Part shown: one piece after another, positions 30,050 through 47,012 of the stretch
Layout of the letters: every line of letters starts with the position of its first letter
Position numbering within the stretch: the first letter of the stretch is position 1
Assembly: GCA_015067615.1 (NCBI GenBank)
Contig: SVMD01000004.1
Coordinates: forward strand, 787 to 64,786
Source: Oscillospiraceae bacterium
GTDB taxonomy: Bacteria > Bacillota > Clostridia > Oscillospirales > Oscillospiraceae
Direction of reading: 5' to 3'
DNA length: 64,000 nt
The notes under the pieces: model-generated
The model's input: the letters and a program-made list of their open reading frames with translations, nothing else
What the model was told of the DNA's origin: nothing
The model's database searches: none
Position numbers and translations under genes: made by a program

Positions 30050-30500
30050 TGAAACGCCGGCAGATGGGTTCGAGCTTCCCCGTTGAACATTTCTGCAACA
30101 AAAATGTCCCTGCGCCCACACCATCCGGATGCGTTCGCAAGGACATGGATTCTCCCACAGGCCCGCCCTCTTAGGTGCTTGGGAAACCTGGTCGAAGGTG
30201 TCGATCCCGTCGAGCCCTCAGGCATACGCGCTATCCGGCACTACTGCAACCTAAATGATCTTCCGCCTACATCCGTACCGGATGCATTCGGAAGATCATG
30301 GATTCTCCCACGGGCTAAAAAGTGTCCACCGGACACTTTTTGCACCAGTGTGCGCATTGTATTATTGTATGGTTGCCACCGGCAACCATCAAGATTATTA
30401 ATCCGCTGCGCGGAGCACCACTGGTGCCGCCCTTTCGAATCCGTCCTCATCCTCTGCCAAAAAGAAAAGCCACCCTGTCGGGTGGCTTTTCTTTTTGGCA
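30050..30500. repeat. tRNA-end multi-hairpin element (locus A), adjoining tRNA-Gln
   Basis: Nested stems GATCTTCC/GGAAGATC, AAAAAGTGTCC/GGACACTTTTT, GCACCAGTG/CACTGGTGC, ATGGTTGCC/GGCAACCAT, bounded by GGATTC/GAATCC matching the tRNA T-arm. Confidence 0.8.
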
Positions 30501-30569
30501 GAGGATGAGGGATTCGAACCCCCGCGAACGGAGTCAGAGTCCGGTGTGCTACCGTTACACTAATCCTCT
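30496..30569 (-). tRNA. tRNA-Gln (anticodon CTG)
   Basis: Minus strand AGAGGATTAGTGTAACGGTAGCACACCGGACTCTGACTCCG...GGTTCGAATCCCTCATCCTCTGCCA folds as a cloverleaf. Confidence 0.92.
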
Positions 30570-30646
30570 TGGTGGAGACAACAGGACTCGAACCTGTGAC
30601 CTCATGCGTGTGAAGCATGCGCTCTAACCAGCTGAGCTATGCCTCC
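30570..30646 (-). tRNA. tRNA-Val (anticodon CAC)
   Basis: Minus strand GGAGGCATAGCTCAGCTGGTTAGAGCGCATGCTTCACACGCATGAGGTCACAGGTTCGAGTCCTGTTGTCTCCACCA. Confidence 0.93.
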
Positions 30647-43679: not shown

Positions 43680-43900
43680 GAGTGGACGATATAGGACTCG
43701 ATAGAATTAAGGTGTTGCGCCCGTCGATGTATTATTGAATGGTTGCCACCGGCAACCATTCGGATTTTGATCCGCTGCGCGAAGCACCACGGGCGCAAGC
43801 AGGTGTCCACCGGACACCTGCATTTAAATTGTTCGAGTCCTATTTCTAATACCATACCAAAAAGAAAAACCACGCCGAAAGGCGTGGTTTTCTTTTTGGT
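43680..43900. repeat. tRNA-end multi-hairpin element (locus B), adjoining tRNA-Val
   Basis: Stems TTGCGCCCGT/ACGGGCGCAA, ATGGTTGCC/GGCAACCAT, GCAGGTGTCC/GGACACCTGC; bounded by ATAGGACTCGA / TTCGAGTCCTAT copies of the tRNA T-arm. Confidence 0.82.
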
Positions 43901-43973
43901 GGACGATATAGGACTCGAACCTATGACCTTCCGCACGTCAAGCGGATGCTCTAGCCAGCTGAGCTAATCGTCC
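43897..43973 (-). tRNA. tRNA-Val (anticodon GAC)
   Basis: Minus strand GGACGATTAGCTCAGCTGGCTAGAGCATCCGCTTGACGTGCGGAAGGTCATAGGTTCGAGTCCTATATCGTCCACCA. Confidence 0.93.
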
Positions 43974-46559: not shown

Positions 46560-46937
46560 AAAAAAGGGATTGCGTCTACCGAACTCTCTGCAAAGTCTGA
46601 ACGGCTTCAATCCACATCCGTACCGGATGCGTCTTGAAGCCAGAGGGACTCTCCCACGGCCTAAAAACAGTCCACCGGACTGTTTTTACCCTCCCTTCGG
46701 TCGGGCCGGCCTTTCGAGTCCCGTCCGGTCCAAAAAGAAAAAAGGGAGGCCGAAGCCTCCCTTTTCTTTTTGGTACACCGGAAGGGACTCGTTTGCATTT
46801 CTGCCCCGTTGGGGCAGAAAATATTGTGTTGCCGCCGTCGAGCCGGCGGCAAGCGGCGCTCATCCGCACCGCATTGAAATGTTCGAGTCCCTCCGGGCAG
46901 CAAAAAAGCGGCTGCCCGAACGGGCAACCGCTTTTTT
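46560..46937. repeat. tRNA-end multi-hairpin element (locus C), two modules in tandem adjoining tRNA-Arg
   Basis: Stems GGCTTCAA/TTGAAGCC, TAAAAACAGTCC/GGACTGTTTTTA, TTTCTGCCCC/GGGGCAGAAA, TTGCCGCCG/CGGCGGCAA; two copies of GGTACACCGGAAGGGACTCG and two terminator hairpins. Confidence 0.82.
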
Positions 46938-47012
46938 GGTACACCGGAAGGGACTCGAACCCCCAACCCTCGGAACCGGAATCCGATGCTCTATCCATTG
47001 AGCCACCGGTGC
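46937..47012 (-). tRNA. tRNA-Arg (anticodon CCG)
   Basis: Minus strand GCACCGGTGGCTCAATGGATAGAGCATCGGATTCCGGTTCCGAGGGTTGGGGGTTCGAGTCCCTTCCGGTGTACCA. Confidence 0.93.

Follow-up and report, generated by a model that had tools for sequence, protein, structure and literature searches.

In three examined genomes from a group of gut bacteria, gene-less cassettes occupy the 3' flanks of about half or more of the operon-terminal tRNA genes, and each carries copies of its local tRNA in both orientations. tRNA genes are classic docking sites of mobile DNA, and their known guests carry genes. The units described here are probably a new kind of footprint, likely the mark of a mobile sequence aimed at tRNA genes. 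One of them lies in the window (the whole stretch of 64,000 nucleotides of Oscillospiraceae DNA that was analysed), where the order behind tRNA-Val(gac) is A-t-A'-E-A (43682-43896, minus strand), A being the tRNA 3' end, t a terminator, A' an inverted copy of the T-arm and E a structured cassette.

All four tRNA genes of the window lie on the minus strand. Gln and Val occupy 30496-30646, Val(gac) occupies 43897-43973 and Arg 46937-47012. tRNA-Val(gac) is intact (ARAGORN; Rfam tRNA model, 68.9 bits) and its T-loop is read as the insertion target. The interval between the tRNA and A' is occupied by t, a symmetric, bidirectional-looking intrinsic terminator hairpin (43860-43896, minus strand; arms 43860-43876 and 43881-43897). 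Past the terminator lies A' (GTTCGAGTCCTAT, 43831-43843, minus strand), an inverted copy of tRNA positions 53-65, with tRNA numbering counted back from A76 throughout. The left end of a cassette of type E1 follows (CAATTTAAATGC in tRNA sense, 43820-43831, minus strand); its first base is the last base of A', and the motif recurs in 39 units and in their alignment. Two hairpins on the same strand, both backed by covariation, make up the body of the cassette. The first, hp1 (43799-43821), is a stem with a CC-GGT-GG apex (GCAGGTGTCC-ACC-GGACACCTGC), and the second, hp2 (43715-43798), has the arms TTGCGCCCG (43715-43723) and CGGGCGCAA (43790-43798) and a loop swollen by a nested dispersed repeat, D (43728-43788), which has a hairpin of its own (ATGGTTGCC-ACC-GGCAACCAT, 43739-43759). 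The right end of E1 (CACCTTAATTCTA in tRNA sense, 43702-43714, minus strand; end motif CACCTTAATTCTAT) has the same tail as other units and adjoins A, a direct copy of tRNA positions 55-74 that forms the far flank of the insertion (43682-43701, minus strand). There are just two occurrences of the sequence GTGGACGATATAGGACTCGA, one at 43682-43701 and one within tRNA-Val at 43899-43918, and RNA folding of 43681-43973 (minus strand) gave z = -11.7 relative to shuffles. The tRNA-Val 3' end copy, its inverted partner and the hairpin arms named in the original prediction are thus all present, the copy starting at 43682, one base from the predicted position of about 43681.

Related units, also on the minus strand, stand behind two other tRNA genes of the window. 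At tRNA-Gln(ctg) (locus A), a terminator and a near-perfect inverted copy of the tRNA 3' end form a palindrome with perfect arms of 31 nt (30434-30495), followed by a cassette of a second type, E2 (30250-30433), which consists of a hairpin with a GTCC-GGT-GGAC apex, an GTGGGAGAATCC tail and a copy of D nested in GCACCAGT/ACTGGTGC. Behind tRNA-Arg(ccg), an E1 unit (46771-46937) comprises a terminator, A' (46881-46892), E1 and A (46771-46791, tRNA positions 56-76), and a second, distal unit (46640-46771) adds a second terminator, a second A' (46729 down to 46713) and an E2-type cassette.

The Gln and Val loci had been described as holding the same modules in permuted order. D is indeed nested in both, but the cassettes that host it are of different types, E2 at the Gln locus and E1 at the Val locus, and the difference in order arises because E1 and E2 each host a nested D. 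The usual hp2 loop is GCTCGA, and at the Val locus D occupies that loop. A 350-bp query returned 30 matches in the window's own genome, and about ten more copies of D (~43728-43788 in the window; hairpin GGTTGCC-ACC-GGCAACC) lie away from tRNAs in that genome. Copies of D share a GCC-GGT-GGC hairpin and an GCTGCGCGNAGCACC core (L010-L019, with further copies in relatives); the copy at the Gln locus is at 30357-30430 of the window (C8:31144-31213). Hairpin loops seem to be where D resides. At two loci (L227 and L140), hp1 of E1 hosts a larger nested repeat, E3. E3 is structured, ~130-180 nt long (GGGAGCGAAGGGAGCGC..GGGCACCGCAAC; L191, L217, L227, L140 and L293), and is also found behind tRNA-Met.

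The A-t-A'-E-A architecture recurs in the window's own genome behind Val (two loci), Gly, Gln, Arg, Leu, Pro, Ser, Asp, Tyr and other tRNA genes and behind tmRNA; 40 distinct tRNA/tmRNA genes were listed for this genome in the fetched loci. In a first test of 30 terminal loci, an inverted 14-mer (at most 2 mismatches) was found at 17 of 30, compared with 58 of 862 queries made from other tRNAs, and a direct 18-mer (at most 3 mismatches) at 13 of 30, compared with 3 of 862. Among operon-terminal tRNA/tmRNA genes of this genome, A' was present at 21 of 32, the direct copy at 14 of 32 and both at 14 of 32. The corresponding counts were 18, 15 and 13 of 32 operon-terminal loci in G054 and 17, 14 and 12 of 28 in G011, two relatives rich in E, and 0/22 for A', direct copy and both in the E-less relative G356; most tRNA places of these three relatives were fetched. 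Three genomes of other genera gave inverted and direct counts of 0 and 2 of 19, 0 and 0 of 14, and 1 and 0 of 13 loci; from G073, G131 and G096, chosen operon-terminal clusters were used.

Queries from other tRNAs matched the direct copy in 3/896 cases in the window's genome, 4/894 in G054, 0/676 in G011 and 0/434 in G356. For an inverted 11-mer the same controls gave 370/896, 262/894, 152/676 and 1/434, respectively. Because T-arms are nearly universal, an 11-base inverted T-arm copy is not by itself locus-specific, and since other tRNAs match the inverted 11-mer so widely, only the acceptor part was used to judge whether the inverted copy is specific to its locus. At 21 of 56 loci (5.6 expected), A' past the T-arm matched the acceptor of its own tRNA better than the acceptors of at least 90% of other tRNAs. 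The claim that the ends follow the local tRNA is therefore borne out by Val, Gln and Arg in the window and, genome-wide, by the comparison with other-tRNA queries. A chance repeat was considered and ruled out by the recurrence of the units and by the excess of local over other-tRNA matches.

The boundaries of the copies are sharp. Of 43 direct copies, 37 begin at tRNA position 55/56 and 20 reach A76, and the inverted copy ends within positions 51-54 in 51 of 60. A flanking direct repeat of the tRNA 3' end that starts in the T-loop, as in tRNA-targeting integrative elements, is thus present. Some units depart from this pattern. The direct copy begins at position 49 at Pro(ggg) in G054 and G011, where the inverted copy corresponds to positions 40-56 or 40-58, and at position 44 at Met in G054, where the inverted copy corresponds to positions 37-49. 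In G073, of genus g2, Pro and Gly units have the same layout and an inverted copy that spans the T-loop back to the anticodon arm. From these Pro, Met and g2 exceptions it follows that the inverted copy can derive from different parts of the tRNA. Pro and Gly units with an inverted copy of the part from anticodon stem to T-loop are L255 and L264 (G073), L189 (G054) and L222 (G011).

Sites without the unit locate the insertion. In four relatives, tRNA-Val-CCA is followed by a terminator, A', E1 and then CGAGTCCTATATCGTCCACCA and TACATGAAAAATCCGAAC, and in three others tRNA-Val runs straight into TATAAG, TATATG or TACATG, with the same AAAAATCCGAAC tail; compared with one another, these sites indicate an insertion that has the tRNA 3' end as a direct repeat on either side. 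The empty tRNA-Val sites foreseen for close relatives were found insofar as tRNA and tail match, but the flanking genes do not correspond, so the sites are tail-matched and not proven orthologues; as candidate orthologues they were set aside, the match being confined to tRNA and tail. The Gly-Arg-His operon is orthologous by both order and sequence, and the unit in its Arg(tct)-His spacer varies among genomes. This spacer measures 14 nt in G356 and is short and unit-free in the window's genome. In G054 it holds a terminator-less E1 unit whose direct repeat measures 21 bp, and in G011 it contains a decayed remnant of a unit. The missing terminator in G054 suggests that t is not an obligatory part of the unit. 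Site-specific acquisition at T-arms, as originally proposed, is supported in that the unit-free sites show precisely where insertion took place and that 21-22 bp of the tRNA 3' end were duplicated; both empty sites and tRNA-specific matching, whose joint absence would have spoken against it, were found.

The units measure ~65-250 nt and are gene-less, with a cassette core of ~65-110 nt that has conserved end motifs and two or three hairpins and occurs behind many unrelated tRNAs. Insertion leaves the tRNA intact and places a second copy of its 3' end on the far side, up to CCA in young copies. The interval between tRNA and cassette usually holds an intrinsic terminator and, in E1 units as extracted, the inverted T-arm copy. 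Units also stack in tandem, the distal ones often being more decayed. For alignment, 41 distinct units were extracted by requiring a seven-base match between A' and A, so that A'-A pairing is not itself evidence; 39 of the 41 were aligned, leaving out the window's own unit, with its nested D, and one reverse reading of another unit. The arms of the two hairpins are varied, with 20 (hp1) and 31 (hp2) distinct 5' arms among the 39 units. Covariation was computed on the 27 units of the commonest layout, for which 93.2% of 512 stem cells were paired, compared with 73.2% in shuffles and 28-50% in slid controls, a percentage that holds for that layout. Both sides had changed in 15 of 19 pairs, and double changes were seen in 98 cells against 26.4. 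The 12 units outside this computation (L090, L102, L111, L130, L133, L142, L144, L150, L151, L154, L155 and L157) mostly have variant hp1 or hp2 lengths or loops. The stems of E have thus changed rapidly in sequence, with pairing kept nearly perfectly.

The mean similarity of E was 0.64 within a genome (45 pairs), 0.56 between genomes for the same tRNA type (69 pairs) and 0.56 for unrelated pairs (627). This pattern points to a cassette that spreads or is homogenised within genomes, the within-genome similarity being modest. At tRNA-Val of G054, two tandem copies of E are nearly identical and their terminators differ. The terminator t resembles the far terminator of its own locus, t0, beyond the 95th percentile of other pairs in 11 of 36 units, where 1.8 were expected; at other loci, such as the tail-matched Val sites, t and t0 are unrelated.

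The left-end motif of E1 (one mismatch allowed) was found in 1 of 295 genomes of the order, namely the window's own, in a draw that included only two other members of its genus. Within the genus, 79 of 136 genomes had it, as did 20 of 40 of good quality. Since this motif misses most cassette types, its absence elsewhere denotes absence of E1 and not of all such units. A longer exact motif was found in 41 stretches of named genomes, all labelled as Oscillospiraceae, Clostridia, Clostridiales or Bacillota MAGs, and 28 of its 43 matches sit 48-64 nt behind a tRNA or tmRNA gene. When a plasmid collection was queried with the Gly unit, a match to a Vescimonas plasmid comprised the tRNA and the first tail bases, with the cassette uncovered; in a phage collection the same query matched mostly tRNA sequence and never the cassette. 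In IMG/VR, one contig carries an E1 unit (L172) together with two large serine recombinase genes and is probably a provirus/host border, and another carries E3 among phage structural genes (L293). The L171 match in IMG/VR fell in a region with neither tRNA nor unit, and E2 had no match there.

No Rfam family other than tRNA and tmRNA reached its gathering score in the window and five unit loci; a known RNA family was also sought by a permissive search of six more loci, which beyond tRNA returned only sub-threshold matches. In the open-licence papers searched, no description of such units was found. The units do have the features of REP/BIME-like palindromic repeats in that they are multi-copy, short, structured and gene-less.

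Several candidate mobilising enzymes were considered. Reverse transcriptase (RVT_1) had no match at 1e-8 in the window's genome, G054 or G011, and its presence was not associated with E across 136 genomes (Fisher p = 0.48). An origin by reverse transcription, self-primed on the terminator and copying the tRNA 3' end to the T-loop, is disfavoured by the lack of RVT_1 matches in these three E-rich genomes. Y1 transposase at the same threshold was absent from G054 and G011 and present in one copy in the window's genome, with no association with E across the 136 genomes (p = 0.56); an IS200/IS605 or REP transposase is disfavoured by this scarcity. Neither enzyme is required. Tyrosine recombinase domains gave 5, 8 and 5 matches in the three E-rich genomes. 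The E-less genome had 24 (some of them split), about three to five times that number, and among the tyrosine integrases counted in these four genomes no candidate tracked E. The gene-less units carry no integrase, and none was linked to E. Several tRNAs adjoin an integrase and lack a unit, among them Ala(ggc) in the window's genome, Leu(cag) and Thr(ggt) in G054 and Trp in G011; tRNAs beside a tyrosine recombinase (L304, L305, L307 and L313) tend to be unit-free. On these few loci, units and integrases may compete for the same T-loop. Tandem units and a shortened integrase frame nearby occur together at tRNA-Val of G054.

Four explanations can be ranked: mobile cassettes come first, template switching alone second, a selected RNA or decoy function third and remnants of integrated elements last. 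At somewhat under an even chance, we favour a genus-restricted family of gene-less, non-autonomous cassettes that target the T-loop and are moved as DNA by an agent acting in trans, with the match to the local tRNA due in part to fold-back copying. The cassette would move as DNA, probably as a folded single strand in which A' and A pair and so rebuild a double-stranded T-arm, and strand exchange would take place at TCGANTCC with a recombinase supplied in trans. Template switching during replication, by fold-back on the terminator hairpin, would then make or repair the inverted copy and the perfect stems, and thereby the ends would stay matched to the local tRNA. Two processes seem to be needed: a dedicated T-loop agent on account of the conserved core, the fixed ends, the fixed T-loop boundary and the narrow host range, and fold-back template switching on account of the inverted copies of the local tRNA, the perfect but drifting stems and the occasional duplicated terminators. 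The cassette explanation draws on the census, the 55/56 boundary, the unit-free sites, the covariation, the likeness of E within genomes, the tandem copies of E, the reach of A' into the acceptor and the nesting of D and E3. Against it stand the absence of a recombinase linked to E and the small number of tyrosine-recombinase matches in E-rich genomes (one E-less genome being compared). Furthermore, an inverted tRNA copy is not what a classical attachment-site model would predict, and the likeness of t to t0 at 11 of 36 loci is more readily explained by duplication or template switching than by a terminator borne by the cassette. The modest similarity of E within genomes also counts against it, and no movement was seen at the population level.

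A more specific form of this explanation appears doubtful. It holds that the cassettes are programmed by tRNAs: folded single-stranded DNA, in which A' and A form a T-arm, would recombine with the T-loops of tRNA and tmRNA genes used as integron-like platforms, each insertion regenerating the 3' end and delivering a terminator, and the stems would drift because only structure is recognised.

Template switching alone is a possible but less probable account. A nascent strand would fold on the terminator and retrace the tRNA 3' end in reverse as far as the T-loop, giving A'. Microhomology at TCGA/T-arm would let it jump to a different tRNA that serves as donor of E, from which it would return to A, leaving E as a passenger spread and homogenised by ectopic switching at T-arms with no dedicated enzyme. 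Inverted copies that reach the local acceptor at 21 of 56 loci agree with it, as do the 31-nt perfect palindrome at Gln, the Pro, Met and g2 units with inverted copies of other tRNA segments, the t/t0 matches at 11 of 36 loci and the lack of association of reverse transcriptase and Y1 families with E. Switching at quasipalindromes is reported to create and maintain perfect hairpins (PMC8794818), and it makes inverted copies beside a hairpin. However, it predicts neither a conserved dispersed core nor a fixed T-loop boundary. It does not explain E, and a further cause would be required for the conserved ends of E and for the sharpness of the 55/56 boundary. Moreover, terminators and T-arms are universal, yet the units occur in part of one genus in the sample, and t and t0 are unrelated at many loci, including the tail-matched Val sites.

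A selected function is improbable. Structured RNA or DNA behind tRNAs might act as a read-through regulator, as a decoy attachment site against integrating elements or as a bidirectional insulator, the tRNA copies being part of that function. Strong covariation and the presence of units behind many different tRNAs and tmRNA would suit such a role, and a decoy would also suit the several integrase-adjoining tRNAs that are unit-free and the fewer integrase matches of E-rich genomes. The decoy idea nevertheless rests on one E-less genome and meets the combination of tandem units and a shortened integrase frame at tRNA-Val of G054. In general, a function is hard to reconcile with the absence of units from G356, their presence at a few loci only in the three other genera sampled, the free decay of direct copies and the position of the units past the terminator in all but one operon (Arg-His). 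Ordinary remnants of deleted islands or prophages once attached at these tRNAs are very improbable, for although tandem stacking and direct repeats that reach from T-loop to 3' end are traces of tRNA-targeting integrases such as that of Ms6, which exchanges strands in the T-loop (PMC1762012), the same gene-less structured core with conserved ends lies behind many tRNA types, the inverted T-arm copy is present with no gene remnants, and deletions would have needed identical stopping points every time.

Comparison with known systems places the units among several of them. Phage Ms6, which uses tRNA-Ala, has T-loop strand exchange and a 26-bp core towards the tRNA 3' end (PMC1762012). Tyrosine integrases of this type share with the units the T-loop target, the direct duplication from T-loop to 3' end, the intact tRNA and tandem stacking. 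The units differ from Ms6-type integration in being gene-less, in occupying many tRNA types and tmRNA in one genome, in having an inverted T-arm copy within the insert and in their structured core with drifting paired stems. They can be classed as structured, presumably non-autonomous insertion repeats at tRNA genes, and belong by half among tRNA-integrating elements, having the flanking repeat of such elements and not the integrase. REP/BIME and MITE-like palindromic repeats are short, gene-less, hairpin-forming, multi-copy and intergenic and form nested mosaics, all of which is true of the units; unlike REP/BIME repeats, the units are fixed behind tRNA 3' ends, their ends copy the local tRNA, and no Y1 (RAYT-type) match was found in two E-rich genomes. 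In integron cassettes with attC sites, hairpin structure rather than sequence is conserved, and cassettes stack beside a fixed site with the oldest distal. The units likewise keep structure over sequence and stack next to a fixed site, but that site is a tRNA gene and the cargo is a terminator only; judged by eye, the core motif of integron recombination sites had no match in the units. Finally, tRNA-derived SINE-like retroposons are short and structured and are linked to tRNA 3' sequence and flanking duplications. The units resemble them in each of these respects and differ in that no reverse-transcriptase domain match was found in E-rich genomes.

If the units are mobile, they offer a natural replicated experiment, with many targets per genome and ~136 genomes, on how a recombination system retargets between tRNAs without destroying them. 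If template switching produced them, the birth and upkeep of perfect hairpins and inverted copies are recorded in them with unusual clarity. Additionally, the units create spurious tRNA 3' fragments and can mislead the annotation of attachment sites.

Two further observations concern individual loci. On contig C31 of the window's genome (L098, 109-300), a unit with Cys/Thr-type ends and a terminator stands at the contig start with no tRNA upstream, which suggests a lost tRNA or an assembly effect. In G054, the Leu(caa), Arg(acg) and Leu(tag) loci (L194, L184 and L199) have a common terminator family (GGGTTATCCC..GGGATAACCC) and different E cassettes, as if t and E were shuffled independently.
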